A stretch of DNA of 38,162 bases. Origin: an uncultured Spirochaetales bacterium. Its GTDB lineage: Bacteria; Spirochaetota; Spirochaetia; Sphaerochaetales; Sphaerochaetaceae. The position numbers and the translations under genes were made by a program. Shown in pieces: positions 550 to 35,425 of the stretch; position 1 is the stretch's first letter; each line of letters starts with the position of its first letter. The notes under the pieces were generated by a model, which was given only the letters and a program-made list of their open reading frames with translations, was not told the DNA's origin and did not search any database. The stretch spans positions 1 through 38,162 of the forward strand of contig CASFDA010000006.1 of assembly GCA_949293335.1 (NCBI GenBank), read 5' to 3'.

Positions 550-1011
550 GTGAAGAAGATCTGTCGCATGACCTTGCCAGAAGAGAGCAGAAAGCATCTA
601 GTACAAGATGTGGCCTTTTCCGATGAAAAAGAGAGTCTTGCAATGCGTCGCGGAGGTCTTTCTCGCTCTCTGGAAATGAGGATAGCTGAAAATAAAATAT
701 TTAAAGCTAGATTTTCCAACTTTTTTGCATCACAAACTTCACAAAAACATTACATTTCTACTTTAAATAATTATTATCTTAAGTCAGAGAGCCATAAAAT
801 GAAATCTCTGAAGAAGTTTGCCATCTTTCTGATGCTTCTTCTATTTGTACTCTCTTCTATATGGTGCGGGGAGACGCTGGCAACAGCACAACTCAAAGTA
901 GTGCTGACAATCCCCGACAAACCAATAACAGAAGAAACGGAGGATGGAGCATATGGGAACTACGAGATTTCCCACGATGGCAACGTGATGTATATTACTG
1001 CTTCGACTTAA
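550..1011 (+). CDS. Hypothetical membrane or secreted protein, two possible starts
   Basis: The frame begins at GTG 550 behind a strong GGAGG box with a 5-base spacer and gives 153 residues. The first 83 are charged and match nothing I recognise. Residues 84-110 (from MKSLKKFAIFLMLLL) look like a classic N-terminal signal peptide. An internal start at ATG 799 would therefore give a 70-residue secreted protein, though with a weak ribosome-binding site. The stop overlaps the stop of the convergent last fimbrial gene. Either the strong-SD start makes a single-pass membrane protein, or the signal peptide now sits inside a frame extended upstream. Function unknown; it might also not be expressed. 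Confidence 0.3.
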   Translation: MKKICRMTLPEESRKHLVQDVAFSDEKESLAMRRGGLSRSLEMRIAENKIFKARFSNFFASQTSQKHYISTLNNYYLKSESHKMKSLKKFAIFLMLLLFVLSSIWCGETLATAQLKVVLTIPDKPITEETEDGAYGNYEISHDGNVMYITAST

Positions 1012-1637
1012 GAAGTCTTGAGTTCAAGGACGACATAGCCAGAATACCGCCCTCCGAGGATCTGCGCATCATTGTTTGGTGGTTTGATAGTGAACGTAAG
1101 GTCTCCTTTACCTGTAAAAGACTCAGAAGTTCCAGCATGGAGAATCGGCTTTTCGCCAGTTACTAGCTTTATTGTCCTTTCTTCAAGAGATACTTCTGCA
1201 TCAAGGTCATCAGCCAAGAATGAAAGATTATTTTGTCCACCTGAAAAAGTGACATTTGCGTTCAGTCCACCTGAATATACCCTGTTTCCATTATTATCCT
1301 CATAATCCCGGGAGAACATATAACCAGGCTCAGTCCAGTTTGCAGCAGTCGCAGTGTGCTCTACGAAATAGATATTAAGACTGTCGATCGTGAGGTCAGT
1401 ATCATATGGATAGACTGCATAATACACCCCGATTGTTTCTGTATTCTCCTCTCTTGCCTTGATGATACCGAAATCAAATTCTGAAACAGGGACCGAGGAA
1501 TCTGTATCATAAAAATACAACGCTGTCTCTCCCTGCTTCTTCAGCTTGAGATTGAACGAGATCTTGTCAAGCTCTGCCGCAAAAGAGGAAAAAACGAAAA
1601 GAGCAATCAGGAAAAGAGAGAGGATAATGCGCTTCAT
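1008..1637 (-). CDS. Secreted pilin-like subunit, last gene of the fimbrial operon
   Basis: This is a 209-residue protein with a Sec signal peptide (MKRIILSLFLIALFVFSSFA, cleavage after AFA/A). It is the ninth and last subunit-type gene after the chaperone and usher. Like its neighbours it is rich in beta-forming and small polar residues, lacks cysteine after the signal peptide, and ends with a Tyr-containing strand, GRYSGYVVLELKTS. That ending resembles the last beta-strand of chaperone-usher pilins, which the chaperone and next subunit bind. Its ATG overlaps the preceding stop codon by 4 bases, so translation is probably coupled. The pilin role is inferred from context and pattern, not from a named family match. 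Confidence 0.6.
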   Translation of the reverse strand: MKRIILSLFLIALFVFSSFAAELDKISFNLKLKKQGETALYFYDTDSSVPVSEFDFGIIKAREENTETIGVYYAVYPYDTDLTIDSLNIYFVEHTATAANWTEPGYMFSRDYEDNNGNRVYSGGLNANVTFSGGQNNLSFLADDLDAEVSLEERTIKLVTGEKPILHAGTSESFTGKGDLTFTIKPPNNDAQILGGRYSGYVVLELKTS

Positions 1638-2230
1638 ACCGCTTTCACCTCCATTTTAAGTACAGTCCTGTACGAAAGCTCTATATCAATACCATCTACA
1701 TCAACAGGAACTTCGAGATGCACACTTCCCGAATAGTGGCGGCCGGTACTGAATGATCCCCCTGCACTTTCTCCTACGAGAGTGACAGAAGAACCACTTT
1801 CAGACGACGAGTATGAGCCATCTGCAGAGATGTTATCGCTTGAATTCGAAGTGACTTCAGATATTACAAGGTCAAATGGAAGATACGTAGTCGTGGCAGT
1901 CCCATCTGAAGACACCCCGTTCAGGCTATAGAACGAAAGGTTCACCTCAATCGCACTTGATGTGAATGCCTGGACATAATAGTAGAAAGTAGGAGTCATG
2001 AAGCTTCTCGATGTGACATCATAGGTGAAATTGAGTTCAGCCCCTTCCTGATAGATATTATCTGAAGCAACCGGGAAAAGATCCCCTACTGCTCTGCTAG
2101 AAAAGCCTATAAGCACATTGTCCTCAGCATAGAACGTGACTGTCCCCACTGCCTCCGGAACATTACTCTCTGCAGAAGAGAGGATGCAAAGGGGCATGAA
2201 CAACAAGATAAGAAGCAAGACCTTTTTCAT
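1634..2230 (-). CDS. Secreted pilin-like subunit
   Basis: A 198-residue protein with an N-terminal signal peptide (MKKVLLLILLFMPLCILSSA). The mature part has no cysteine. It shares the family pattern of its neighbours: an early strand ending in IGF (VLIGFSSRAV), a central aromatic strand (TFYYYVQAF), an LPFDL motif where sisters have [IL]-[PD]-W, and a C-terminal strand YRTVLKMEVKAV. It starts 3 bases after the upstream gene's stop and overlaps the next gene by 4 bases. It probably forms part of the fibre made by the chaperone-usher pathway; whether it is major or minor cannot be told. Confidence 0.6.
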   Translation of the reverse strand: MKKVLLLILLFMPLCILSSAESNVPEAVGTVTFYAEDNVLIGFSSRAVGDLFPVASDNIYQEGAELNFTYDVTSRSFMTPTFYYYVQAFTSSAIEVNLSFYSLNGVSSDGTATTTYLPFDLVISEVTSNSSDNISADGSYSSSESGSSVTLVGESAGGSFSTGRHYSGSVHLEVPVDVDGIDIELSYRTVLKMEVKAV

Positions 2231-2233
2231 GAT

Positions 2234-2839
2234 TCACCCATTATCTTTAATACTCAGTTTCACTGTCGCAATATATTCAACAGGATAGATACTCGATCTA
2301 GGAAAATTTCCGCTCACCTTGATCTGGACACTGTCGATTTCCTCTACGCTGTATCCAGTACCAGATGCAAGCGACACTTCAGATACGGGTGCACTTACCT
2401 CGCTATTTTCTTTTTCTGCTGTTATTGTCGTATTAGTGTTATCCACATTCCAACTCAGAGTCCAAGGAAGGTACACCGTCTTATTTCCATCTGTCGAAGG
2501 CACGCTTGCAGTCAGAGGAGTTGCCGAGAGATTCAGCGTGACACTGTTTCCTGTCATCCCTATTATGTCCCAGTAGACATAGAATCTTTCTTCTTCAATC
2601 GTTATCTGATCTCCATTCTCTATACCTGTAAGCACGAAATAACCGTCATCAAGGAATGACGAGGGCGTCGGAGAGTTAGCATTGACCGGGCCTCCGCTGA
2701 ATCCGAATTCGTAATGGGAGGCCTTCTCAAAGTCCAGTACCGGCACTATCGTGCTCGTCTTCCCTTCCCAAGCGGCAGCAGGAAGGAAAGATGAAAATGA
2801 AATCAGAACAATCAAGAAAAGAAGAACGATCTTTCTCAT
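2234..2839 (-). CDS. Secreted pilin-like subunit
   Basis: A 201-residue protein with a signal peptide ending near SSFLPAAA. It carries the shared subunit marks: an early strand with an F-G-F motif (YEFGFSGGPV), the central strand FYVYWDI, the motif LPWTLSW, and a C-terminal strand YIATVKLSIKDNG. It is cysteine-free after the signal. The gene follows the previous one by 12 bases and belongs to the same transcript. The likely role is a fimbrial subunit folded by the PapD-like chaperone in the periplasm. This rests on paralogy and gene order. Confidence 0.6.
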   Translation of the reverse strand: MRKIVLLFLIVLISFSSFLPAAAWEGKTSTIVPVLDFEKASHYEFGFSGGPVNANSPTPSSFLDDGYFVLTGIENGDQITIEEERFYVYWDIIGMTGNSVTLNLSATPLTASVPSTDGNKTVYLPWTLSWNVDNTNTTITAEKENSEVSAPVSEVSLASGTGYSVEEIDSVQIKVSGNFPRSSIYPVEYIATVKLSIKDNG

Positions 2840-2851
2840 CTCTTCTCCAGA

Positions 2852-3415
2852 TCAAACTGTATCAACTGGCTCAAGCACAAGGGTCATAACTGCAGAATAA
2901 CTGCCAGGAGCTGCATCTGCTGCATTACCGACGGTATTAACTGTCAGAAGATACTTATCTGTCCTCAATGCTGTGGCCGGTGGAGTTCCGTTCTCGCTCT
3001 CATCAAGAATCGTTATGGCGTTCGCAGCTTCATAATTATTCGCTCCTCCAATTACAGTTTCATCCAAATTACCAACGTTAGTTCCTGAAAGTGTTCCAGT
3101 CCAGTCGATCGGTGTGCCATTGTCTCCTGCAGTAAGCGCTGAATTTGCATAGAGCTTGATTGTCACAGCAGGACCGATGATCTTATAGCCGACATAAGTT
3201 GTACCAGAACCTGTGACAGTAGAACCATCTACATTGGTTGTAAGAGCAACCTCTTCATCCGCTGTAGAAAGAGTGTCATCTGTATAGAACCCCCATTCCC
3301 TACTAGCAGCATCTTCGGTCGACAAGTCCCACGTGACTTTGGTCGTCTTCTCTTCCGCATAAACACCTGCCATGAAAACAAGTGCAATTAGCGCGATCAA
3401 AAATACTTTTTTCAT
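2852..3415 (-). CDS. Secreted pilin-like subunit
   Basis: A 187-residue protein with the signal peptide MKKVFLIALIALVFMAGVYA. The mature domain contains VTWDLS, REWGF, TYVGYKI and IDWTGTL, which line up with the same blocks in the neighbouring subunits. It ends in APGSYSAVMTLVLEP, the clearest pilin-like terminal strand in the set: a Gly and Tyr followed by alternating hydrophobic residues, as in chaperone-usher pilins. High Thr, Ala, Gly and Asn content and absence of Lys-rich or Cys motifs would fit a main shaft protein, but dosage cannot be read from sequence. The gene is 12 bases downstream of its neighbour. Confidence 0.65.
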   Translation of the reverse strand: MKKVFLIALIALVFMAGVYAEEKTTKVTWDLSTEDAASREWGFYTDDTLSTADEEVALTTNVDGSTVTGSGTTYVGYKIIGPAVTIKLYANSALTAGDNGTPIDWTGTLSGTNVGNLDETVIGGANNYEAANAITILDESENGTPPATALRTDKYLLTVNTVGNAADAAPGSYSAVMTLVLEPVDTV

Positions 3416-3427
3416 TGTTCCTTCTCC

Positions 3428-3991
3428 TTATTCGTTATCTATTTGTTTGATTTCAATTACCAGACTCGAAGAGTATATGTCAGGGCTCTTTTCCGAAGCA
3501 TTAGAAGTTTCCGGTACAGAGAGAGTGATCTCCATGCTATCTGAGGAAATAACATTTCCTCCCTGATAGCTTAAAAGATCAGCAGATACAGGATCTGTCG
3601 GGGAAGATGCAAGACTTTTCCCATCCCATGATGCTTCCCAGGGAATAAGCTCTCTATTAGCCTCCCCTACCAGATCCCCATCTACCCTGATATCCAGATC
3701 TATGCTCTCCGGATACTGGAGATTCCATCTGACATAAAGTGTTCCTGATGCTGTCACAGTCTCTCCTTCGACATTAGTCTCAAGGTTGATGTTTGTTATC
3801 TCATTCCTTGTCCCCTCGCTCTGAGAGGAGAACCAGACATCAAAAGCTCCAAAACTAGAGAGGTCCAGAGATGCTTCAAACGAAGCACTCTGTGCCTTTG
3901 CACTTTCGATATCCGACTCTATTACCTGAGTCGCAGAAAAGAGCGGCAAGGATGTTAAAGCTATCGCGAAAAAGAGCAGCACCCTGATCAT
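3428..3991 (-). CDS. Secreted pilin-like subunit
   Basis: A 187-residue protein with a signal peptide (MIRVLLFFAIALTSLPLFSA). It has the same length as the next subunit and the same ordered blocks: LDLSSFGAFDVWF, LYVRWNL, IPWEASW and a C-terminal strand IYSSSLVIEIKQ. No cysteine is seen in the mature domain. It follows the preceding subunit gene by 11 bases. The similarity in block order suggests tandem duplication followed by divergence. Its role as a fibre subunit is inferred from the chaperone-usher context. Confidence 0.6.
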   Translation of the reverse strand: MIRVLLFFAIALTSLPLFSATQVIESDIESAKAQSASFEASLDLSSFGAFDVWFSSQSEGTRNEITNINLETNVEGETVTASGTLYVRWNLQYPESIDLDIRVDGDLVGEANRELIPWEASWDGKSLASSPTDPVSADLLSYQGGNVISSDSMEITLSVPETSNASEKSPDIYSSSLVIEIKQIDNE

Positions 3992-4002
3992 CAGAAATCC
4001 TC

Positions 4003-4623
4003 TTATACTCCGCCACTTGTCACTTTCAGTGTCAGTGTTCCTGTGTATGTGCCAGGGGCTTTTTCCATGATGTCGTCTGTCACGATAGTAAGTTCTGCAT
4101 ATCCGGCATCGCCATATGTCAGTGCTTTATCCCTATCGTAAACGGACGCATCTACATTATATTCACCACTATCTGTTGTCGAGCTCTTTCCAGTTGAAGT
4201 TTTTACACCTGAGTCTGTGCTCTCGACTTTGCTTGTCCATGTTGTCTTCCAATCAAGATTGCCATTCGAGCCATTACTCATAGGTGCGCCAGCGGAAAGC
4301 GTGATATCAAGAGGAGAGCCTGATGCAATCTGCCAGAAGACAAAAAGCTGATCACTCATCTCTACCTTCCCATCCTCTGTGAGAGTCATTGGAAAAGCAC
4401 GAGCAGCATTTGGCATATCTGAATCAATGTCAAAAGAATTTGTCAGGACATCTGTAGTAAAACCAATGATTACATTGGAATCACCTGTTGACGGAGAAAG
4501 ATCGAGTGTAACTTCTGTTGTTGCATTTCCACTCGTTCCATCAATGTCCGCACTTCCTGTGCCATCTGCAAAAGCGAATGTGCCTATGATAAGCACACAT
4601 AATAAAGTGACTAGCCTATTCAT
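4003..4623 (-). CDS. Secreted pilin-like subunit
   Basis: From ATG 4623 the product has 206 residues; a GGAGG box sits 4 bases upstream. A longer frame from a TTG at 4635 is less likely because it would translate through the ribosome-binding site. The signal peptide ends near TFAFA. Family blocks are present: VTLDLSPS, VIIGFTTD, LFVFWQI, LDWKTTW and the terminal strand APGTYTGTLTLKV. It follows a 107-base gap after the large subunit gene, the biggest gap among the subunit genes. A second promoter or RNA processing there is possible, but no clear promoter is visible. Confidence 0.6.
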   Translation of the reverse strand: MNRLVTLLCVLIIGTFAFADGTGSADIDGTSGNATTEVTLDLSPSTGDSNVIIGFTTDVLTNSFDIDSDMPNAARAFPMTLTEDGKVEMSDQLFVFWQIASGSPLDITLSAGAPMSNGSNGNLDWKTTWTSKVESTDSGVKTSTGKSSTTDSGEYNVDASVYDRDKALTYGDAGYAELTIVTDDIMEKAPGTYTGTLTLKVTSGGV

Positions 4624-4730: not shown

Positions 4731-6209
4731 TTACATTTCTCCGATCACATGTATATACATGTTTCCCTTGTAAACTCCCTCATACATGATGTTGTCCCCC
4801 GGATCGAGCATCACATCGATTTCACCCGAATAGGAATAATAATTGAGCGATGCATTCTGATGACCTCCTGTGATGTTATTGATATTACCTGCATCCGAGT
4901 AACTCGCTATCTGGGAGACAGATATTCCACCGCCACCCGTACCTGTGATTGAACTTATAGTATCCTCTCCCCTGAACGTCGCCACAGCTGTGTTTCCTCC
5001 AGAAGTGAGAGATCTTGCTCTGACTGTAAAACCTATGCTGTTTGAATCGGTAAGAGGAGTATCGTATCGCACGTTCGTATGCACAAGTTTGAACTCGCCC
5101 GTACTATTTACAGTCGGATCACTCGATGAAGAGATGAATATCTTCGGATTGCTCCACTGAAGCATCGTGCTCTGATTTGCTGTTGTTCCTTTGAAAGCCA
5201 TGAAATCCATCTTTCCAACCGGGACCCAAACTCCTCTGTCACTCTCAATCGAGAGATTACCTGCAGATGCGTATGTATCGACTATAAGTGATGCTGTGGA
5301 CTCAAGTTCAACGGAACCTCTATCGTAATAACCAGAGAATGGAATGGTTATGGATTTACTTCTTCCCTCATAGGAGATGGTTATCGTGACGATAGCAGTA
5401 TAGTCATTTGCCTCGATAAGAGGATATGTCACATTGTCGACCGTGATCGTATCGCGAATCGCGTCGTAGTTATCCATAGGAAGGTTGATGATAAGGTCAA
5501 ACCAAAAGCCACAATATACTCTTACCTCTGTATCTCCATTGTTATATGATCCTTTGATAGCATCCTGCTTTGTAAAATTAAAGAAACTGCTATTTTCGGC
5601 AGCAGCAAGAGCATAGTCAAATTTAAGATCTTCGGATATTGGCTCTGAAAAGAGCTGTGCAGCGGAACGGCCACCATTAATATCATAACTTGTTGAAGAA
5701 TCATCATTCCAAATTAAGTCACGATGTTCAGATTTAATTCCACCCATTGCATTCGACTGCCTCAAGATGATCTCAAAAGGCCTCTTGTATGCAGGATTGC
5801 TCTGGCTGACAAGATAAAAATCGTTCGGGCATGTGATCGTAACAGTCAAAGGCTCATCAAATGAACCATGTCCATCAAATGGAGTAATGTCATACACTCC
5901 TCCCATAGCTATCATCTCAGCATCTGAATACGCACCAGGAAAGGGATCTGTATAGCGATCAAGAGTGCCACTTGAATCGCTCCAGTCATACACATTGTTG
6001 TTTGAATCTACATTGTTGTAGTTTGAATCTACAATGTTTATCCCACCGCGTGCTCCATAGTACGGAGTGAGGAGCAAATACTCTTCTCTGTTCTGCCGTG
6101 CTAAGTAATCACTGTAACTGCTATGATCCTCAATATTCTCCCATGGGTAAGTAAAAGCAGACAGCGAGCAGAATGAAAATATTATCAGGAAAAGCAATAT
6201 CCTCTTCAT
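4731..6209 (-). CDS. Large secreted subunit, candidate tip adhesin
   Basis: The ATG at 6209 has a GGAGG box 9 bases upstream and gives 492 residues with signal peptide MKRILLFLIIFSFCSLSA. It is more than twice the size of the other subunits and rich in Asn, Asp, Ser and Tyr (for example INIVDSNYNNVDSNNN). In chaperone-usher systems the oversized subunit with an extra N-terminal domain is usually the adhesin at the fibre tip. The C-terminus ends in VYKGNMYIHVIGEM, like a pilin donor-accepting strand. Only two cysteines are visible in the mature chain (in ITCPND and VYCGFW), which could form a disulphide. The start is separated from the preceding stop by a single base. The adhesin role is inferred; ligand unknown. 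Confidence 0.55.
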   Translation of the reverse strand: MKRILLFLIIFSFCSLSAFTYPWENIEDHSSYSDYLARQNREEYLLLTPYYGARGGINIVDSNYNNVDSNNNVYDWSDSSGTLDRYTDPFPGAYSDAEMIAMGGVYDITPFDGHGSFDEPLTVTITCPNDFYLVSQSNPAYKRPFEIILRQSNAMGGIKSEHRDLIWNDDSSTSYDINGGRSAAQLFSEPISEDLKFDYALAAAENSSFFNFTKQDAIKGSYNNGDTEVRVYCGFWFDLIINLPMDNYDAIRDTITVDNVTYPLIEANDYTAIVTITISYEGRSKSITIPFSGYYDRGSVELESTASLIVDTYASAGNLSIESDRGVWVPVGKMDFMAFKGTTANQSTMLQWSNPKIFISSSSDPTVNSTGEFKLVHTNVRYDTPLTDSNSIGFTVRARSLTSGGNTAVATFRGEDTISSITGTGGGGISVSQIASYSDAGNINNITGGHQNASLNYYSYSGEIDVMLDPGDNIMYEGVYKGNMYIHVIGEM

Positions 6210-6210
6210 C

Positions 6211-6855
6211 TCACTGATCCTCCGCAACGACAGCTATCGTGACTGTCGCAAAATAATTTCCGACAGGCAGATTTGATGTATCATCTCTTATGACTTCAGT
6301 GCTCTCTTCTGCAAACTCGAAGTAAATGCTTCCCTCTGCACTTCCCACATAGCCACTACCGATCGTCTCAGGAAGGAGGAAGAATGAAAAACTATCTCCG
6401 TCTATCGCTCCGTTATCCGAGACAGCTTTTTTATTTCCAGTCGTGAACCAGAAATCACTTTCAGCACTTCCCTTTTCACCATTGCTGTCGTAGTAACCGA
6501 GGTTATAAGTGAACTTCAGCGTATAATAAAGCGGTTCGCTGCCGCCGTTCTCATGCATGAGGGGAGTAGCTGAAATCCTGAGACTGAACTTCGTATTGGC
6601 AATTACAGACCAGTATGCGATCTCCCTGCCGTCTTCCGTGACACCATACTGCACATAGTTGTCCTCGATATCGAAAGGCATTCCATTCCTGTACTGCTCT
6701 GTCTGTGCAGGGATACGGTCAACAGCAAGTTCTGCAACAGCTCCGTATCCTGCCTGAAGCTCAATTGACTTCGGATCAAGCATTTTCTGATAAACCGCAT
6801 AGAGCTGGGAGAATGTGATCAGAAGTACTGAAACTGTAAGTAGCAATCTCTTCAT
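6211..6855 (-). CDS. Secreted pilin-like subunit
   Basis: A 214-residue protein with a Sec signal peptide (MKRLLLTVSVLLITFSQLYA). The mature chain has a beta-rich, cysteine-free composition and ends PVGNYFATVTIAVVAEDQ, a pilin-like C-terminal strand. It begins 10 bases after the first subunit gene and abuts the large subunit gene. Internal blocks such as ISATPLMHENG resemble the LSATPL block of a sister subunit. As a gene next to the adhesin candidate it could encode an adaptor or initiating subunit, but this is only suggested by gene order. Confidence 0.55.
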   Translation of the reverse strand: MKRLLLTVSVLLITFSQLYAVYQKMLDPKSIELQAGYGAVAELAVDRIPAQTEQYRNGMPFDIEDNYVQYGVTEDGREIAYWSVIANTKFSLRISATPLMHENGGSEPLYYTLKFTYNLGYYDSNGEKGSAESDFWFTTGNKKAVSDNGAIDGDSFSFFLLPETIGSGYVGSAEGSIYFEFAEESTEVIRDDTSNLPVGNYFATVTIAVVAEDQ

Positions 6856-6865
6856 CTCTTTCTCC

Positions 6866-7510
6866 TCATGGTGTTGTGAGCGTAACAGTCACAAGCGAAG
6901 TATATGTACCAAGTGGTGCTGCTTTGTAACTCTGCTGATTGATTTCCATTGCAACCGCACCGCGTGCAATCCAGACAGGAATGGTCACGCCATCAGCTGC
7001 AGATGGCGTTATTTCCCAAGAATAAGAAAGACTCGAACTTGAATCACCGCTGGGTGAACCTGGCGTGATCGTATAGGTTGTTGAACCTGACGCTGCCGTA
7101 TTTGACGATGTTGACTGGAATATCTCCGTATAGTTCCTGAGTCCATAGTTTGCAGCGATCGTATTAGTTCCATCTGTAAGCGAGCCAAACGTCATGCCAA
7201 TGCTATACTTGCCTGAGAGATTACCTACTACACGGTACGAGAATATGATCTTTGACTCTGAGATCAGCTCCTCTACATGCTCTGTGAGGTTTATCTCATC
7301 ATAGTTTCCCGTATCTATACCTTCTTCTGTATACGGATTATCAAGTACATCCAGATCCTCGTTTATCGCATCGGTTATCGTAACTTGGAAATAAGGTGCT
7401 CCAACTTTATATGCCGCTATTTCAAATGTAGTTGATGACAAGTCAACGGCATATGATGCACTCATCACCAAAAGAAGGATGAATATGATAGTTTTTCCAA
7501 TTTTCCTCAT
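6866..7510 (-). CDS. Secreted pilin-like subunit, first after the usher
   Basis: A 214-residue protein with a signal peptide (MRKIGKTIIFILLLVMSASYA). Its ATG overlaps the usher's TGA as ATGA, so the two are translationally coupled. The mature domain is Thr/Ser-rich, has no cysteine, and ends APLGTYTSLVTVTLTTP, the same Gly-x-Tyr plus alternating hydrophobics seen in chaperone-usher pilins. In many such operons the gene next to the usher encodes the main or an early subunit. That is context, not proof. It does not closely resemble a named pilin family that I can place. Confidence 0.6.
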   Translation of the reverse strand: MRKIGKTIIFILLLVMSASYAVDLSSTTFEIAAYKVGAPYFQVTITDAINEDLDVLDNPYTEEGIDTGNYDEINLTEHVEELISESKIIFSYRVVGNLSGKYSIGMTFGSLTDGTNTIAANYGLRNYTEIFQSTSSNTAASGSTTYTITPGSPSGDSSSSLSYSWEITPSAADGVTIPVWIARGAVAMEINQQSYKAAPLGTYTSLVTVTLTTP

Positions 7511-10500
7511 ACAGCAGCCTCCGGATACATCAGATTCCAGAACTCATCCTGTGTGATTGACTCTCCTCCTCCGAATACGAATGCGTCTCTATAGATGGAA
7601 GGAAGCGAGAGCTCACTGTCTGTCCTGTAATCATCGAGGAGGAGAAGATCTCCACCTTCTTCATAACCATCTGCGTCTATCGTGAATATAACGAGATGCC
7701 ACTCGCCGTTCTCGTCATCTGCGTCGAATGCATAGACACCTGGAAGGAGGTCATTCAAGACGAACCTTCCATCGCGATCAGTAAAGACGTAGGACTCTGT
7801 CGTGTCGAGATTCACAGTGCCATCCTCCACAGAGACTTCGTAAAGCGGGGATGAGCCGTTATACCAAGGCACTCCATCAAAATGCACAATTCCCGAAACC
7901 GAATACCGCTCTTCTGCAGAAAGGCGGAGGACATATCCCTTTATGTTCGATGCAGGGATTGCTATATCAAACGACTCTGCGCTTCCGAATCCCCCATCCG
8001 GGATACTGAAGAGCGAGAGATATGTGGATCCACTGGAAGGAATTCCAGTGTAGAGCGAGGAACCAAAGACCTCAGGAAGTATGGAAGTGGAAGAATTCCC
8101 TGCCCTTCCAACCGAGAGGTCATTGTCTTTCAGCGCACCGCCCTGATTTATAAGCACATAATTGGAAGGTATTGTCGAGCGTACCGTGAAAAGGCCATCG
8201 GCAAAGAGGGTGGATGTCGAGAGAGACATGTTCATCCTCGTGTAATTGAAGAGATCGGATGCATCAAGTCCGACAGAAGCCTTCGCGTATGTGCCTGTGT
8301 AAGTGTAATCACCGGAGATGCCGTAGCTGTTGATGTCAGCAAACGCATTCGGATTGTCAATTCTTGCAGAGAAGCTGTTGTGCGAATCGTTGTAGCTTCC
8401 TTCAAGATAAGAATATCCGTAAGACGAATAGCTGGCACCGACACTGCCACCGCCGAAGCGGAACGTTGCAGTGACACGACCTTCGACTATCGGTGGAGCG
8501 TCCACATCGTTTCCATTCACATCAAGGGAAGCGGAAAGCCAGAGATATCGGCCGAGGGAGAAGCTGAATGAGCCTGATACGCTGTAGTTCAGACTGCTCC
8601 AGTCTGTAAGCGGAGTTGACAGATAGCCGTTGACGCTCCATCCGAATATGCCGATGCTTCCGGAGAGGCCTGTGGAAAGCGAGAGTGTGTGAGTATCCAG
8701 ATCACCGTTATAGGTCGCTGAAAGGTTGAATGAGGAAATAGGTGTCCAGTCTGTATAGACCTGATGCCCGATTCGGGCGTAGATATCAGGATATACCCAC
8801 TCATTTCGGTCAGCGTGTTCTGTAACACGGAAATTGTATCTGGTTGTGCCAAGGACGTTGGCATGCGTAAGTTCCAAGGCAAGCACCGCGCTTGGATTGA
8901 AGAGGGCCGACGAATCGACGCTATTGCCGAACGCGGCTGAGAAATCCATCGTCAGGCTCTCGGAAAGACCGGATGTGACAAATCCGGAGAAAACGAGATT
9001 CCTGAAATCATACTCAAGGCTCCTCCCGTCCCAGAGAGGAATACGGAAGGCACCATCAATCATGGAAGAAGAGGAGGAGACTGTTCTTCTTCCCGTGGTG
9101 AGAGATGCTCCATAATAGGTCTCGCCAGGCGCAAGGAGTGAGCTTGAGTAATTAACATCAAATTCAATCACTTCAGGCATTGTTCCATCAAGTGGAGATA
9201 TTACAATCCTGATTCTGTTGGCTCCTGTATACAGGATGAAATCAGAGAGCCGGTAATTGCCGGGATCGAGCGTCCTGTTGAAGATCTCCCTTCCCTCGTT
9301 GTAGACGGTGACCTCTGATTGCTTTTCAAGGGTGATGACCCTCTCCAGATGGCTTCTGGACCTGACTCCGGGAGCTGCATAATCGATCGCCTTCTCAAAA
9401 CGGATGCCGAAAGGAGTTCCGCTCGGCGAAAGGAGATCTGTGTCCACATTACCCCAGCTGAGACGGATCATCTCGTCCTCGAAGTCTGTGTAGAACTCAT
9501 AGGAGCCCATGCGGAAGTCGAATGAATCAAGATCCCAGTCCATGTACCAGTTGAAGTTTCCAAGGACTTTTCCGATCCTCACGCTGTTTGAAGATGAGAG
9601 CGTGAAGTCCAGAGTATTCTTGAATGTATCGAAATCGCTCACATAAAAGTCCGTAGAGAGCGTGAATCGGCTGGCAAGAGTGAACACAGCAGGTTCAAGC
9701 TCGGTCGCACCGAGTATCGGACGTCGCTGTATTCCGCCAGTTCCCCTCAGCGACAGCATCCTGACAGGCATATCCTCGCTCGAGAATGTGAGATAGACCT
9801 CATAGAGAGAACTGTCATACGAACTATCGATTCCAATACTGTTGAGATCAGAAAGGGTTATGCTGCTGCCACTGCCGAGGAATATTCTGTCAAATGCCTC
9901 GTCTGTAATATTCCCGTCAAGGTATTCCCTCAGTTCAGATGTGTTCAGGCCAAGTTCACCATTTGCAAGTTCAACGCTGATCTGCCCTACTGCATCACCA
10001 TTGATGACAAGGAGCATGAAATATGTGCCGTCTGCAAGCGAGAGACTATCTTCTCCCTGGATGAAGAAATCAGCAAAGAAGTCCTCGTCATATATCGCAT
10101 CATGATAATAGAGCGGCTCTTCTTCAGAAGAGACATCCTCACTCCCGCTTTCTGCTTCTGCTGAATCAGGCAAGGAAGCAAGAACTTCTTCATTTCCATC
10201 GGCAATCACGCCGTCGCTATTTTCCACTGAGACTAGAGGACTCTCCTCTTTTTGAACACTCTCAAAACTTTCTTCTTCAATTACTTCCTCTATGGGAAAG
10301 GCCACATCCTCTTCAACATGTTCTTCCGCTAAGGAAATGTTCTCTTCCAGAGGATGGTCTTCAGGATTGACTTGTTCTTCTTGAATATCTGTGCCTTCTG
10401 CCACTATATTCTCAGAACTGGCCTCTTCTGGAATATCTATGCCCTCTTCAACTATGTCTGCAGAACTAGTCTCTGCTGGAATCTGGACTGTCTCCATATC

Positions 10501-11250
10501 AGCTTCTTCATAAAAGAGTGCCCCAACATCACCAGAAGGTTCCTCATCAGGCACTATGACAGTATTCACGAGGTAATCTCTATCTTTCTGACTCTGCATC
10601 TCGGTCTTCTTCACGCTCTTTGCTGGAAGAAGGAGTATGGCAGAGAGGATAAGTGAGAAGGCAAGGACGATGGCCAGCATCCTCATCGGCGAACAGATTC
10701 CTTCTTCGAGGATGAAGAAGAACATCATCACGTTAAAAAGGGATGAGTACACAGCCCCTCCGACGAAAAGGCCCGTTATGTATGTAAGTATGCCAGGCTC
10801 GGGAGAGAGCATCCCTGATAGCACTATCGCTGGATAGAATACCAGTATGAGGCTGGATGTCAGAGAAACGAGGAAAAGACGGCCATATCGTTTCCTTCTT
10901 TTCAGGACAGCCAGTTCCCGGAATAAGAGGATAGCAGTCAGTACAGAAATGAGGGAAAGCTCCGAATCAATACCTTCATGTTCTGAAAAGAGCGCGACAG
11001 GGAAGAAGATCATCGATGTGAAGAACAGGTAGCAGACTCTGAGCGAATGCTTCTTCAGTCTCTTTTCATCCAAGGCCCCGGAACGGGACAACAGGAGAAG
11101 GAGGAGGGATGAAAAGGCTGAAACAGCCAGTACCGCGATAAAGGCAAAAAGAATGACAGAGCTTCTCTCATGACCAAATGACGCCACAAAAGCGATGCAA
11201 AAAGTCAGAAGAGATACTTTCACTATCTCTGACAAACCCTTTCCTTTCAT
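7507..11250 (-). CDS. Outer-membrane usher fused to a seven-helix membrane domain
   Basis: This 1247-residue protein has three parts. Residues 11-210 hold seven predicted transmembrane helices; positive loops at 55-71 and 116-124 place the N-terminus inside and the following chain in the periplasm. Residues 211-380 are a Glu/Asp-rich linker with a 16-residue tandem repeat. Residues 385-1247 resemble a FimD/PapC-type usher: an N-terminal domain (YEVYLTF), barrel strands, a plug-like segment at 640-690 (VTVYNEGREIFNRTLDPGNY, LYTGANRIRIVI), a FDVNYSSSLLAPGETYYG block, and a C-terminal beta domain with TDRDGRFVLNDLLPGVY. Ordinary ushers have only a cleavable signal peptide and about 800 residues. 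An AGGAAAGG box precedes ATG 11250. It lies 30 bases after the chaperone gene. The usher call is from recognised patterns; the fused topology is a prediction. Confidence 0.75.
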   Translation of the reverse strand: MKGKGLSEIVKVSLLTFCIAFVASFGHERSSVILFAFIAVLAVSAFSSLLLLLLSRSGALDEKRLKKHSLRVCYLFFTSMIFFPVALFSEHEGIDSELSLISVLTAILLFRELAVLKRRKRYGRLFLVSLTSSLILVFYPAIVLSGMLSPEPGILTYITGLFVGGAVYSSLFNVMMFFFILEEGICSPMRMLAIVLAFSLILSAILLLPAKSVKKTEMQSQKDRDYLVNTVIVPDEEPSGDVGALFYEEADMETVQIPAETSSADIVEEGIDIPEEASSENIVAEGTDIQEEQVNPEDHPLEENISLAEEHVEEDVAFPIEEVIEEESFESVQKEESPLVSVENSDGVIADGNEEVLASLPDSAEAESGSEDVSSEEEPLYYHDAIYDEDFFADFFIQGEDSLSLADGTYFMLLVINGDAVGQISVELANGELGLNTSELREYLDGNITDEAFDRIFLGSGSSITLSDLNSIGIDSSYDSSLYEVYLTFSSEDMPVRMLSLRGTGGIQRRPILGATELEPAVFTLASRFTLSTDFYVSDFDTFKNTLDFTLSSSNSVRIGKVLGNFNWYMDWDLDSFDFRMGSYEFYTDFEDEMIRLSWGNVDTDLLSPSGTPFGIRFEKAIDYAAPGVRSRSHLERVITLEKQSEVTVYNEGREIFNRTLDPGNYRLSDFILYTGANRIRIVISPLDGTMPEVIEFDVNYSSSLLAPGETYYGASLTTGRRTVSSSSSMIDGAFRIPLWDGRSLEYDFRNLVFSGFVTSGLSESLTMDFSAAFGNSVDSSALFNPSAVLALELTHANVLGTTRYNFRVTEHADRNEWVYPDIYARIGHQVYTDWTPISSFNLSATYNGDLDTHTLSLSTGLSGSIGIFGWSVNGYLSTPLTDWSSLNYSVSGSFSFSLGRYLWLSASLDVNGNDVDAPPIVEGRVTATFRFGGGSVGASYSSYGYSYLEGSYNDSHNSFSARIDNPNAFADINSYGISGDYTYTGTYAKASVGLDASDLFNYTRMNMSLSTSTLFADGLFTVRSTIPSNYVLINQGGALKDNDLSVGRAGNSSTSILPEVFGSSLYTGIPSSGSTYLSLFSIPDGGFGSAESFDIAIPASNIKGYVLRLSAEERYSVSGIVHFDGVPWYNGSSPLYEVSVEDGTVNLDTTESYVFTDRDGRFVLNDLLPGVYAFDADDENGEWHLVIFTIDADGYEEGGDLLLLDDYRTDSELSLPSIYRDAFVFGGGESITQDEFWNLMYPEAAV
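10372..10467 (-). repeat. 48-bp tandem repeat in the usher's acidic linker
   Basis: Two adjacent copies encode SSADIVEEGIDIPEEA and SSENIVAEGTDIQEEQ (residues 262-277 and 278-293). The copies are diverged, so this is an older duplication. Repeat-number change would alter the length of the linker thought to span the periplasm. Confidence 0.7.
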
Positions 11251-11280: not shown

Positions 11281-12018
11281 TCAGGAAGAATATCTGTAGT
11301 TGTAGCTGATAGCCACATCGAATGCAGTTGCCCCCGAAAGGGCTTCAGGGACATCAAGTACAATCCTCAAGGTAGAATCTGTAAGGAGATTCTGTCCCTT
11401 GATCACCCCCATATCATCATCGGTCAGGGTATATTCCCCACCGTTATCACCTTTTACAGTCACAGAGAGATCATTGAGAAGCTGATGAACAGTTCCCGTG
11501 TTCGTTATCAGGATCTCAAGTTTTCCTTCCTCGTTGATCTCCGCTGAAGTCTCTGTGCTCTCAATCACCCTCTCCGGCTTCACGTATGCGCTTGTCGAGT
11601 ATACGAAGAGAAAGGAGATCATCTGGCCAGACTGCGCTTCCTGAGCACCGAGGGAATACGGGATCTGCTCGCTCACGATCCTGAACGCAAGCTCCTTTGG
11701 CAGCGTTGAAGGCCCTCTGTACTGCACGCGCACAAGCTGAGTGGAATTTGGTCTGATGATCATCTTGTTAGGCTGTATTGAGAAATACTCGGGCGCTTCC
11801 TCTGTATATTCGTTTCCATCAAGATCCACATTCCTCTTCTGGGACACCAGCTGCAGAGCAATCGGCGAATCCGAGTCATTAACGATTGTATACACTTTTG
11901 CAGAGTCAGCTCCGCGGGAATCATAGGTGACATTCAACGGCGACAACTGATAAGCGCTCAAAGAGAAAACCGTCAAAAGAGAAATGAGCAATATCAGCAA
12001 AAGCCTCTTCACACGCAT
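11281..12018 (-). CDS. PapD-like periplasmic fimbrial chaperone
   Basis: From ATG 12018 the product has 245 residues; an AAAGGGG box lies just upstream, while the longer frame from 12051 adds residues ahead of the signal peptide MRVKRLLLILLISLLTVFSLSA. The mature protein has the chaperone layout: a first strand YQLSPLNVTYDSRGADS, VYTIVNDSDSPIALQL, FSIQPNKMIIRPNSTQLVRV and FRIVSEQIPYSL. The FRIVSEQ stretch recalls the archaic (Csu-type) chaperones. In this family a conserved Arg and Lys anchor the subunit C-terminus; I cannot assign them surely here. It is the first gene of the fimbrial operon, 30 bases before the usher, and should fold and deliver the nine subunits. Confidence 0.8.
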   Translation of the reverse strand: MRVKRLLLILLISLLTVFSLSAYQLSPLNVTYDSRGADSAKVYTIVNDSDSPIALQLVSQKRNVDLDGNEYTEEAPEYFSIQPNKMIIRPNSTQLVRVQYRGPSTLPKELAFRIVSEQIPYSLGAQEAQSGQMISFLFVYSTSAYVKPERVIESTETSAEINEEGKLEILITNTGTVHQLLNDLSVTVKGDNGGEYTLTDDDMGVIKGQNLLTDSTLRIVLDVPEALSGATAFDVAISYNYRYSS

Positions 12019-12094
12019 ATAAACCCCTTTGCTATTTTTCTGACGCAACATATACCAAAAGTATGACTAACTGTCTTTTCCGTCAGCGTAGATA

Positions 12095-12404: not shown

Positions 12405-13676
12405 TCAAAGAGGAAGGGAGATTTGGACAATGAAATCGTCTGCTTTTGTCATGATGTTCATCATTCCGCCGTACTTGTCGAGCGTTCTCTGTACATTCCT
12501 CAGCCCTATTCCCCCTGCCTTCTTCGTGGAGACCGGAAAACCGGAGTTGAACACGAGATTGCCGTCATATGTATTCCTGACTTCAAAGAGGAAGACATTT
12601 TTCTCAGTCATCGAGCGCACAGTGATCTTTTTCCTGATGCTCTTTTCTGCGGCTGTAATGGCGTTCTCGAGGATATTGCCGAATATTATCCCCTCTTCCG
12701 GAGATGACAGCGGCAGTTTCTCTGGAACAGATAAAGACAAATTGAAAGCGACTCCGCTTTTCTCCGCACGTCTTGAAGTGATATTCAGAAGAGCGTTCAG
12801 GACCCTGTTACGGCATAGGAAGAAGTGGGAAAAGTCATCACTAGAAGCCTCATATTCTGCAAGATATCGTTCTGCATCCTCCGCTTTTCCCTCCTTCAGA
12901 TACTCCATCAGGATACCAAGATGATGCCTCTGATCGTGCCTGAATGCCCTTGCCTGCTCCACGAAAGCCCTTTCCATATCAAGTTCGTACATCAATATCA
13001 CCTGCTGGTTCTCAACATGCTTGAGCCTGTTCTGCTCTTTCAGCAGTCCTATCATGTAAAGAACTACTGCATAGGACGAAGAGATCAGCATGAGCTCCAT
13101 AACGAGAATGAAAAGCAGGCGGCGAGCGCTTCCAATGTTGTTGTAGGCATAGAGAGCTGTGACGGAAATGATGAAAAACGCAATGAAGGAAAAACTTGCA
13201 AGCACGGTCCAGCCTTTCGTGATCTCTTCTGTACTTTCCCGGATCAGACGGTTCAACTTGTACTTGAGGAGGATGATGAAAACGAGAGAAAGAAGTGATC
13301 TTGAAATAACAATGGCCACATCTGAAGATGAGAAGAACGCAATGGCAATGAACGTACCAATGAGTACTGTGAGCATGAAATATGACGAATATGTCGAAAT
13401 GAGGAATATTTTCTTCGCAAGATTATCTGAGGAACAGTAAATGAACAGAGACAACGCTGTCAGGAAGGAAACGATGAAAAGAAATTTGCTCACACTTTCC
13501 GAAAAACCGAAGAAATAGAGAGGAATGAGACTGAAAAGGCTCAAGATTATCCAGACTGATGACCAAAGCAGGAGAGGATGCTTCAGAGATGGGCGCAGGG
13601 AGCTCAGAAGATATAGAGAATAGGCATGTGTCAGATATATGCTTATGACCCTTACTGCATCAAAGAGAAACTGCAT
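12405..13676 (-). CDS. AgrC-like GHKL sensor histidine kinase
   Basis: The 423-residue protein has six to seven hydrophobic helices up to about residue 212, a coiled-coil stretch at 213-240, then a GHKL kinase domain. The phospho-accepting His is in FRHDQRHH (245-252, His247), the N box is NILENA (334-339) and the glycine loop is AGGIGL (387-392). This is the class of kinase paired with LytTR regulators, often sensing peptides or cell-envelope signals. It starts one base after the response regulator gene, so the two form one unit. It ends 353 bases before the chaperone-usher operon frame, in the same orientation. The signal is unknown. Confidence 0.85.
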   Translation of the reverse strand: MQFLFDAVRVISIYLTHAYSLYLLSSLRPSLKHPLLLWSSVWIILSLFSLIPLYFFGFSESVSKFLFIVSFLTALSLFIYCSSDNLAKKIFLISTYSSYFMLTVLIGTFIAIAFFSSSDVAIVISRSLLSLVFIILLKYKLNRLIRESTEEITKGWTVLASFSFIAFFIISVTALYAYNNIGSARRLLFILVMELMLISSSYAVVLYMIGLLKEQNRLKHVENQQVILMYELDMERAFVEQARAFRHDQRHHLGILMEYLKEGKAEDAERYLAEYEASSDDFSHFFLCRNRVLNALLNITSRRAEKSGVAFNLSLSVPEKLPLSSPEEGIIFGNILENAITAAEKSIRKKITVRSMTEKNVFLFEVRNTYDGNLVFNSGFPVSTKKAGGIGLRNVQRTLDKYGGMMNIMTKADDFIVQISLPL

Positions 13677-13677
13677 T

Positions 13678-14415
13678 TCATTTCTTTTCCCTGAAAGACC
13701 ACTGGAAATAAAGATCCCTTATCTTACGGAAATCTCCTCTCTTTATCATGATAGATGTTCCATCACGGAGCACAAGGCAATTCGAAGTAATTGTCCTTAT
13801 CTCCGCTAGATTGACTATATACCCTCTGTATGGCTGGAAAAAAGAACCTGGGGAAAGCAATTCAAGCTCTTCGGCGAATTTTGCGAGCGTGGTCTTCGTC
13901 TCTTCGTAGGTTGTACCATTTACATGTACGATCCTCCTGTAATTCACGCTCTCAATGTAGCTGATATCTTCTACGCCCACAGACTGCACAACCCCGTTCT
14001 CAAGGTGGAGCAGGATCTTCTTGATGCTCTTTTCAGTGAAGTTCTTCATCGCCCTGTCAAGCGCTTCAGCCAGATCGTCATCAGAAAATGGCTTGAGGAT
14101 GTAGTGCACTGCATTATATGAAAATGCATCAAGCGCGTAATCTCGCGATGATGAGATGAATATTATTTCGCTTTTTTCACTTCTTTTACGTATCTCGCCC
14201 GCTATCTCTGTTCCCAGGGCCTTTGGCATCATCACATCAAGGATGATGATATCGAACGCACCTTCATGCTGTATCTTCTCGAGGAGCTTGAGGGAATCAG
14301 AAAAGTCAGAGATTTCATAATACATGGAATGATGAGAAGAAAAATACTTCTCAACAGAACGATGTATCATGCTCAGCTGGCTCACCTGATCATCGCAGAT
14401 TGCTATATGCAACAT
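13678..14415 (-). CDS. LytTR-family response regulator
   Basis: The 245-residue protein has an N-terminal receiver domain: acidic pocket CDD at 7-9, phospho-acceptor Asp60 in IIILDVMMP, and Lys108 in YILKPF. A LytTR DNA-binding domain follows from about 133 to 240 (FFQPYRGYIVNLAEI). LytTR proteins bind paired direct repeats and often control virulence, surface or competence genes. It is cotranscribed with the adjacent kinase and lies 18 bases after the oxidoreductase gene. The nearest downstream operon is the chaperone-usher locus, which makes it the most likely target, though that is inferred. Confidence 0.9.
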   Translation of the reverse strand: MLHIAICDDQVSQLSMIHRSVEKYFSSHHSMYYEISDFSDSLKLLEKIQHEGAFDIIILDVMMPKALGTEIAGEIRKRSEKSEIIFISSSRDYALDAFSYNAVHYILKPFSDDDLAEALDRAMKNFTEKSIKKILLHLENGVVQSVGVEDISYIESVNYRRIVHVNGTTYEETKTTLAKFAEELELLSPGSFFQPYRGYIVNLAEIRTITSNCLVLRDGTSIMIKRGDFRKIRDLYFQWSFREKK

Positions 14416-20092: not shown

Positions 20093-20851
20093 ATGATCGT
20101 TTCAATCTCAGACAACAAGATCACATTAGGTCATGAAGCATCTATTTCAGGCGGACATCATATAAGGAAAGCCATCAGGGAACAGGGATATGCCAACGTT
20201 GCATTCGTCACTGGCACAAGTCAGATACAGACGCTCTCATATCTTGCGAAGAGTGACAGGATCGACTGGAGCAAAGTCAATGTATTCCTGCTTGATGAGT
20301 TCATCGGCCTTGAAAAAGGGCACAAAGCATCATCGACGACATTTCTGGAAGATCATTTTCTCTCGCTGATCAAGCCTGTGGGATCATTCCACAGCATCTC
20401 TTCCGATGCGGACAAGGTAGAAGAGACAGTGAGAACGCTCAACGAGACACTAAAGAGTCATCCTCTGGATGTTGCTTTCATCTGTATTGGCGAAAACGGG
20501 CATCTGGCGTTCAATGATCCTCCTGCGAACTTCGATACAAAAGACCCTTACATCGTCGTGGAACTCGAGACAAGATCAAGGCGACAACAAGCAAGCGAGG
20601 GATGGTTCGATTCCATCAACGATGTCCCAAAGAAAGCAATCACGATGTCGGTGCACGAAATTCTCTCCGCAAAGCATATCATTTGTTCATGCCCGGACCA
20701 GAGGAAGGCCAAGGCAGTCGCATCCTGCATATTCGATGACATCACTCCGCTTTCCCCTTGCGCGGCACTGCGCATCAGCCCGGATGCGAGGCTATATCTT
20801 GACAGGCAGAGCAGCAAGCTCGTCTTCGCGGACGGAAGGAAAAGTCTCTGA
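20093..20851 (+). CDS. NagB-family sugar-phosphate isomerase/deaminase
   Basis: A 252-residue protein of the glucosamine-6-phosphate deaminase family. It has the family's VFLLDEF block (Asp68-Glu69) and the loop GENGHLAFNDPPA (134-146). In E. coli NagB that loop reads NDGHIAFNEP, with a catalytic Asp that here is Asn. Related NagB-like proteins share the ENGH form, so the substrate may not be glucosamine-6-phosphate. TAGGA lies just before the ATG. The last 60 bases overlap the end of the opposite-strand recombinase gene. No other amino-sugar genes are nearby. Confidence 0.75.
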   Translation: MIVSISDNKITLGHEASISGGHHIRKAIREQGYANVAFVTGTSQIQTLSYLAKSDRIDWSKVNVFLLDEFIGLEKGHKASSTTFLEDHFLSLIKPVGSFHSISSDADKVEETVRTLNETLKSHPLDVAFICIGENGHLAFNDPPANFDTKDPYIVVELETRSRRQQASEGWFDSINDVPKKAITMSVHEILSAKHIICSCPDQRKAKAVASCIFDDITPLSPCAALRISPDARLYLDRQSSKLVFADGRKSL

Positions 20852-22030
20852 TACGAACAGAAGGGTAAGAGGATAAATGCCCATAAGCGACTCGTCGCTT
20901 ACATGAGTATAGTTCTCGTTTACCCTTTCGCTCCTGTGCCCGAGCGCGAGCATCCTGTCTTCACGAGATATGTGCTCTTCCTTTCCTATCGTCGAGAATG
21001 AATGCCTTATCGAATGGAAAGTGAGTTTTCTCCTCTTCTGCTCCTCGACATCTATTCCGCAAGCTACCAGGATGCGTGAAAAGAAATTGCGCAGCGTCGG
21101 GGACGATATGTAGCCTCCGCTTTTGGAAGGCAGGCAGAGCCCCTTCTCATTTGAATTCGAGAGAAGGAGTGAAAAAAGTAATTTGGGAACAAGTATCGCC
21201 CGCTCATACTTTCCCTTTGTCCCTTTGACTCCTGAATACGGAGCTATTGACTCAGTTATGTTAAGCCTCATGACAGATGGGTATTTCGTATTCTCGAAAG
21301 CAGAGATCCTGAGTGCCCTTATCTCCCCGCTTCTCATCCCGCTGTAGAAGGCAAGGCGGAGGGCAAGCACGTATGAAGGGAAATACTGATTTCCCGAACT
21401 ATCAAGATAACGAAGGACCTTCAGGCATTCATCAAGGGTGAGATATCCCCTTTTCCCGTTTTCCTTCTCTATCTTCATCAGTCTCTCCGCCGGATTCTCA
21501 TCTATAAGCCCGGAACGATAGGCTTCCTTGAGCGGCACAGAGACAGAAAGGAGAATCAGTTGCATAGTACCAGAGGACAATGTACCTCTCCTCAGCGATT
21601 CAGAAAGGGTTTCGAGGTCTTCAAGCGTGACATCTGAAAGCTCCTTTTCCCTGTCAAAGAAAGGAAGGACGTGCTTGTTGAAGAATAGAAGCATGTTCTT
21701 CGCATACTCCCTGCCGATACTTCCTTTCTTTATGCTGTTGCGCATCCGTATGTAATCGCTTTCATCGAAAGACCAGAACTTCTGGCAATAGTCAGACAAA
21801 AGTATGTGATTGTCATTTCCCTTCTTCTCAAGGGCCATCAGAGCGACCTTGAAGGCCTCAGCCCTATTCCTGACCGAATACCCGTAGCCAAGCCCTAGTT
21901 CCTCTTTCAGAACGTCTATGCTCTTTGCATTCCCCTGTCTCCCGCTCTTTCTGTCAATGAAACAGACATACCAGTAACTTCTTTTCTTCTTCTGTCTCTT
22001 GTAGAGATAGAATTCTGAACGTTTAGGCAC
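20792..22030 (-). CDS. Tyrosine recombinase (phage-type integrase)
   Basis: A 412-residue site-specific recombinase. The catalytic set is complete: Arg233 (GMRSGEIRAL), His339-x-x-Arg342 (FHSIRHSF), His365 (ALGHRS) and the nucleophile Tyr374 (NENYTHVS). An N-terminal SAM-like DNA-binding region covers about 75-180. The enzyme cuts and rejoins DNA through a Tyr-DNA link. It stands alone: no excisionase, phage or conjugation genes are nearby. About 38 residues extend past the nucleophile, and their coding end overlaps the nagB-like gene by 60 bases in convergent orientation. That layout suggests an integrated element reduced to its integrase, or a domesticated recombinase acting elsewhere. Confidence 0.9.
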   Translation of the reverse strand: MPKRSEFYLYKRQKKKRSYWYVCFIDRKSGRQGNAKSIDVLKEELGLGYGYSVRNRAEAFKVALMALEKKGNDNHILLSDYCQKFWSFDESDYIRMRNSIKKGSIGREYAKNMLLFFNKHVLPFFDREKELSDVTLEDLETLSESLRRGTLSSGTMQLILLSVSVPLKEAYRSGLIDENPAERLMKIEKENGKRGYLTLDECLKVLRYLDSSGNQYFPSYVLALRLAFYSGMRSGEIRALRISAFENTKYPSVMRLNITESIAPYSGVKGTKGKYERAILVPKLLFSLLLSNSNEKGLCLPSKSGGYISSPTLRNFFSRILVACGIDVEEQKRRKLTFHSIRHSFSTIGKEEHISREDRMLALGHRSERVNENYTHVSDESLMGIYPLTLLFVSETFPSVREDELAALPVKI

Positions 22031-35354: not shown

Positions 35355-35425
35355 ACTTCCTCCAAATAAAACTAGGGACACACCACAAGGTGCATTTTTC
35401 CCCCTTATTCCGTTATACGTCTCAT

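Follow-up and report, generated by a model that had tools for sequence, protein, structure and literature searches.

Usher-like proteins with an N-terminal hydrophobic anchor and an acidic linker in the spirochete family Sphaerochaetaceae

Ushers are, by textbook account, proteins of the outer membrane only. Can one also carry an anchor in the inner membrane, and if so, what would that anchor do? The question is raised by P0001, a predicted protein encoded in a 38,162-nucleotide stretch of DNA from an uncultured Spirochaetales bacterium (here called the window). A first-pass annotation described a seven-helix membrane part, an acidic chain, and an usher-like region in a single polypeptide, knew of no usher with this layout, and suggested that the protein might couple inner-membrane events to fiber secretion.

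Layout and fold of the tethered usher

The gene and its parts are as follows.

7507..11250, minus strand: tethered usher gene P0001, an ORF of 1247 aa
10621..11250, minus strand: inner-membrane anchor (residues 1-210), seven predicted helices, N terminus predicted inside
10102..10620, minus strand: acidic linker (residues 211-383), predicted to be periplasmic and presumably disordered
9751..10101, minus strand: usher N-terminal domain preceded by a conserved DDFWADF-type tail (residues 384-500), putative site of chaperone docking
8200..9684, minus strand: beta-barrel (residues 523-1017), about 24 strands in the model, with the plug domain inside
9148..9342, minus strand: plug-domain region (residues 637-701), the most conserved part (60% mean identity), with a PF00577 match at 644-724 and strands in the model
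7621..8196, minus strand: C-terminal periplasmic domains (residues 1019-1210), placed from the model, with a PF13620-like match at 1145-1177

The frame runs from 11250 down to 7507, and an AGGA sequence resembling a Shine-Dalgarno site lies 5′ of its ATG. A chance hydrophobic ORF or a reading of the wrong strand was rejected, because stops are abundant in the plus strand throughout 7507-11250 and the minus-strand frame is conserved. Hydropathy analysis places seven helices within residues 5-209; a second scan over 19 residues, under another charge rule, recovers six of them, and seven are likewise seen in the sister sequence L053. Topology was read from hydropathy and charge, and the N-in/C-out orientation proposed in the first-pass annotation fits, because the helix number is odd and the N terminus is positive. 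The linker is 31% Asp/Glu, with 53 Asp/Glu and 6 Lys/Arg in a stretch of 172 residues, and leads straight into the DDFWADF-like tail, followed by the N-terminal domain. Hydropathy, composition, and L053 agree with the description of a seven-helix membrane part and an acidic chain in one polypeptide.

The Pfam usher profile PF00577 matches P0001 weakly (E of 0.002 to 0.004; 16.6 to 17.5 bits against a curated cut-off of 27.1, which helps detection but does not define an usher), and 12 of 44 relatives match it at E 0.01 or better (best 5.5e-9). NCBIfam gave nothing for P0001, and PDB sequences searched with a profile yielded no usher; ushers were found by fold comparison alone. An AlphaFold2 model of residues 376-1247, built on a 44-sequence alignment, has a mean pLDDT of 83.7, and its strand list gives a barrel of about 24 strands interrupted by a plug region. 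All 18 top PDB matches of this model in Foldseek are FimD/PapC ushers (best 3rfz_B, E 5.8e-29), the alignment to 3rfz_E covers model residues 28-836, and VIA-align scores ushers at Z up to 22 versus at most 16.5 for non-usher barrels. By its modeled fold, P0001 is an usher, in keeping with the earlier description of the C-terminal part, and the barrel would be inserted in the outer membrane.

FimD and PapC, the ushers of type 1 and P pili, consist of an N-terminal domain that recruits chaperone-subunit complexes, a barrel of about 24 strands, a plug, and C-terminal domains (PMC8410936). In the model, P0001 shares all of these modules, and its gene adjoins one for a PapD-like chaperone. It differs in showing no evident cleavable signal peptide (a usual but not a defining trait of ushers), in having an inner-membrane anchor and a linker (92-400 residues in the family), and in sequence, with about 12% identity.

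Operon context and distribution

Nine genes for secreted, pilin-like proteins lie 3′ of the usher gene and a chaperone gene lies 5′ of it.

11281..12051, minus strand: PapD-like periplasmic chaperone with an ordinary Sec signal peptide; PF00345 above cut-off; homologue in 47 of 50 loci
6866..7510, minus strand: subunit-like secreted protein, cluster 2; 34 of 50 loci
6211..6855, minus strand: subunit-like secreted protein, cluster 3; 34 of 50 loci
4731..6227, minus strand: large secreted protein, cluster 4, candidate tip adhesin; 492 aa from an internal ATG; 33 of 50 loci
4003..4623, minus strand: pilin-like subunit, cluster 5; AlphaFold2 pLDDT 85.6
3428..3991, minus strand: pilin-like subunit, cluster 5
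2852..3415, minus strand: pilin-like subunit, cluster 5
2234..2839, minus strand: pilin-like subunit, cluster 5
1634..2230, minus strand: pilin-like subunit, cluster 5
1008..1637, minus strand: final subunit-like gene of the operon, cluster 7; 24 of 50 loci

The order chaperone, usher, clusters 2, 3, and 4, several copies of cluster 5, and cluster 7 recurs among relatives with enough flanking sequence. NCBIfam returned weak fimbrial-chaperone matches at most for the chaperone. The model of a cluster 5 subunit (4003..4623) is a beta sandwich whose fold matches are weak (Z of about 7, E >0.001), with chaperone-usher subunits prominent among them. Because these scores are weak, the case for pilins depends mostly on the operon context and on a GxYxxxLxL C-terminal strand in the secreted subunits.

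Further genes in the window were noted in passing. A GHKL histidine kinase and a LytTR response regulator (12405-14415) adjoin the pilus operon upstream, an arrangement found in a minority of related loci. Two paralogues at 23277-24443 and 34209-35381 encode closely similar predicted outer-membrane proteins with near-identical signal peptides, and an ORF at 20792-22030, judged by eye to be tyrosine recombinase (integrase)-like, overlaps the end of a glucosamine-6-phosphate-deaminase-like gene.

A search of genome contigs with P0001 as the single query gave no match, while an alignment query did match. With a single-protein query, homologues were found in 25 sampled relatives of the same genus, labeled Candidatus Ornithospirochaeta. 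A profile of the usher part, run against 395 Spirochaetia genomes, has strong matches in the window's family Sphaerochaetaceae alone (73 genomes, including single-contig ones) and weak matches in 38 genomes of other spirochete families. Open frames are about 1050-1340 aa long in the family and mostly 780-910 aa in other families. In each of the 67 non-redundant family members whose start is intact, one frame encodes a hydrophobic anchor, a net-acidic linker, and an usher; the layout is conserved in many genomes. Eighteen ushers sampled from other spirochete families have instead an ordinary Sec signal peptide and no comparable tether. These ordinary ushers (e.g., L052 and L159), whose open frames are generally 782-956 aa long, are the nearest relatives outside the family by profile, and their genes lie in subunit-chaperone-usher-tip operons. 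One usher from another family, L162, has a long stretch N-terminal to the usher part; this stretch differs in composition and follows a signal peptide.

Most of the records are metagenome-assembled, which raises the possibility that two genes were joined by an assembly or annotation error. The same open frame is found across all 67 sequences, closed single-contig genomes among them, which indicates that there is no such error, and no relative in Sphaerochaetaceae has the membrane part and the usher as separate genes. We consider the probability of an artefact negligible. Neither outcome that would have spoken against the first-pass description was seen, as the usher model, too, did not fail.

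Several loci within this set have features of their own. L060, from a record labeled Candidatus Phocaeicola faecipullorum, carries the spirochete operon, probably because a foreign contig contaminates that genome. Many genera of the family (L089-L101, L135-L140, and L170) have an orphan pair of chaperone and one-helix usher genes immediately upstream of a V-type ATPase operon; the pair has no subunit genes, and its synteny is conserved. Searches with the pilin profile A3 gave no subunits in genomes of the Sphaerochaeta type. In G229, a weak SCPU match led to candidate subunit genes some 40 kb away from the usher gene; they encode three secreted proteins, each about 360 aa long and ending in a YSDTITV-like sequence. 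The cluster at L183 3158-8847, in a Sphaerochaeta-type genome and about 40 kb from the usher, encodes secreted proteins of this size with YSDTITV-like terminal strands, which are candidate pilus subunits or adhesins.

Helix number, origin, and nature of the anchor

Seven helices are not the defining trait of the family, as most relatives have one or three. An algorithm counts one helix in 29 of the 67 sequences, three in 25, five in 8, seven in 2, and an even number in 3. By eye, two of the even-numbered cases, L071 and L095, have three and five helices; L069, with two, is the one true exception. The tree contains at least eight changes of helix number, one alone leading to an even number, and helices are thus gained and lost in pairs. 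Keeping the number odd leaves the usher on the periplasmic side.

In a tree of 79 ushers, the split between 18 ordinary and 61 tethered forms is fully supported, and the multi-helix forms are one clade inside the one-helix forms. The tree requires a single origin, in which a cleaved signal became a one-helix anchor and later acquired 3, 5, or 7 helices. In the simplest history, cleavage was lost once and the linker grew; a later duplication gave a copy that had additional helices and a subunit operon of its own.

The anchor and linker diverge freely in sequence; the usher is conserved. Its domains average 40-60% identity, compared with 22% for the membrane part (over 55% of columns) and 18% for the linker. 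Further, the membrane parts have no Pfam match above cut-off. A known domain in this region was rejected, as the sub-cut-off matches are unrelated, differ between relatives, and are typical of any helices. This pattern suggests an anchor and a spacer, and a passive role accounts for the membrane part better than a sensory one. The proposed coupling of inner-membrane events to secretion, by which a polytopic domain would sense the state of the inner membrane or cytoplasm and gate fiber secretion through the chain, does not fare well in light of these results. It could draw on the presence of as many as seven helices and on the two-component pair just upstream in the window, but neither the sequence nor the helix number (1, 3, 5, or 7) is conserved, two-component genes lie near a minority of loci only, and a disordered linker would transmit little. 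We regard a sensor as very improbable.

A passive anchor presupposes that the membrane part stays attached. It might be removed by signal peptidase I or another protease, leaving an acidic-tailed mature usher in the outer membrane alone, and the poor conservation of the anchor sequence would suit such a fate. Indeed, 40 of the 67 sequences satisfy a loose -3/-1 cleavage rule close to where the last helix ends (LPA↓K in P0001), but the rule is a permissive one and the site has no conserved position. The anchors are long hydrophobic segments that have aromatic residues at their ends and often reach 2.4-3.8 on the 19-residue scale, whereas signal peptides of the same operons have medians of 1.9-2.3. 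Simple signal peptides are used by ushers of other spirochetes and by chaperones and subunits of the same operons, and both a linker of 92-400 residues and the repeated gain of helix pairs would be purposeless if the membrane part were discarded. Cleavage is therefore unlikely in our view, and the anchor probably stays uncleaved.

A second form of processing concerns the one-helix ushers, 19 of 29 of which have a cysteine at or near the periplasmic helix end (e.g., L134-L143). These proteins could be cut before that cysteine and held by lipid. The residues preceding the cysteine are, however, often T or lie beside K/R, and a lipobox pattern is found in 1 of the 67 family sequences. P0001 has neither the pattern nor such a cysteine, so the model does not apply to it; for the family, it is extremely improbable.

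The linkers range from 92 to about 400 residues, are net acidic, and average 12% proline; a value of 23 residues for L071 was excluded because the algorithm had miscounted a weak linker segment as a helix. A motif, [VIL]Px[APS]Pxx[FLIM], is present in 28 of the 67 linkers versus 1.7 expected from shuffles, an excess inflated by the kinship of the sequences. In the form VPxAPxxF or VPxPPxxF it recurs in linkers that are otherwise unconserved (e.g., L058, L067, and L135), often shortly before the N-terminal domain, and it may be a docking site.

The position of this motif, and the fact that the linker stops where the conserved docking tail and the N-terminal domain begin, are what would be expected if the tether served delivery, keeping the usher near the Sec exit for early capture of chaperone-subunit complexes or for better handover to BAM, with load bearing secondary. 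Charge would not contribute, as linkers, chaperones, and subunits are all acidic and the linker would not attract cargo; electrostatic capture was rejected as its main role, and the charge may simply keep the linker extended. Delivery alone also leaves the growth to 3-7 helices unexplained, and as the primary role of the tether it seems decidedly unlikely.

Envelope context and a possible role for the tether

OmpA/Pal domains are the usual link between the outer membrane and peptidoglycan. The OmpA/Pal peptidoglycan-binding domain is absent from 138 of 139 family genomes, whereas nine of ten outgroup genomes with ordinary ushers have 5-9 copies. Similarly, the PBP transpeptidase domain (PF00905) is not found in the window's genus and is present as one copy in 59 other family genomes, compared with 3-5 copies in nine of ten outgroup genomes. 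Judged by the loss of these two domains alone, the window's genus appears to be wall-poor. Flagellin is absent from all 48 genomes of the genus and, in the class survey, from the whole family; it is present in 37 of 38 genomes with ordinary ushers. Individual genomes depart from this pattern: G097, of another family, has neither OmpA nor flagellin and a single PBP, yet its usher is ordinary, and G138 and G297 have a multi-helix usher yet retain one PBP. The loss of OmpA/Pal domains and PBPs in the family makes an inner-membrane tether attractive, but the correlation between tether and wall-link loss is statistically light, because it represents one event in one family.

The reading that we consider probable is that P0001 is the platform of a chaperone-usher pilus, with the usher permanently tied to the inner membrane and a tether whose role is most likely mechanical and positional. 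An ancestral cleavable signal peptide would have become an uncleaved signal anchor with a cytoplasmic N terminus, first of one helix and, in this lineage, of three to seven. From the last helix, the linker, a long disordered chain that is acidic or rich in proline, would extend into the periplasm; its 167-172 residues, at 0.36 nm each, give a contour length of about 60 nm, enough to cross this space. The chaperone-docking tail and N-terminal domain would follow directly, and the barrel would sit in the outer membrane. Subunits would leave the cytoplasm through Sec, travel with the PapD-like chaperone, and polymerize as in known pili. The tether would then tie the outer-membrane platform, and hence the base of the fiber, to the inner membrane where OmpA/Pal-type links have been lost and, in the window's genus, the PBPs that cross-link peptidoglycan as well.

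The "P-usher" CupB3 of Pseudomonas aeruginosa has an extra N-terminal part, as P0001 does, and in CupB3 this is a POTRA domain serving secretion of CupB5 (PMC3031594). No POTRA match was found in P0001 with Pfam at E up to 1, and anchor and linker take its place. The nearest precedent for a two-membrane chain is PelB of P. aeruginosa, which forms a barrel in the outer membrane and has an N-terminal helix predicted to stay uncleaved in the inner membrane, so that the chain has been proposed to connect the two (PMC12141448). PelB is unrelated in fold and cargo: it is a 16-strand porin with a folded TPR scaffold for polysaccharide and has no disordered linker, whereas the barrel of P0001 is of the usher type and Pfam finds no TPR in it. 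A different parallel comes from TonB, in which an inner-membrane helix and an extended, proline- and charge-rich linker span the periplasm and a small soluble end domain touches receptors. The helix and extended linker resemble those of P0001, but TonB itself has no barrel. We found no described usher with the layout of P0001 in the open-access literature, and open-access searches on Sphaerochaeta and ushers, on ushers with inner-membrane anchors, and on Sphaerochaeta and PBPs gave nothing relevant.

We tentatively suggest, as a possibility somewhat short of probable, that these proteins are a class of usher that bridges both membranes as one chain, anchoring the fiber into the inner membrane and replacing peptidoglycan-based links in wall-poor, flagellum-less spirochetes, with helix pairs added repeatedly during wall reduction. 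To our knowledge, known fibers are held by the outer membrane alone; if the suggestion is true, a family-wide usher tied to the inner membrane would be another way to build and anchor a surface fiber. A single chain with inner-membrane helices and an outer-membrane barrel would likewise be a rarity. The gene is present in closed genomes of the family, so that the idea could be tested, provided that the sequenced strains are available in culture. Such ushers are carried by a flagellum-less spirochete family of gut and environmental habitats, which would then offer a natural experiment on how two membranes are held together after the loss of peptidoglycan links.
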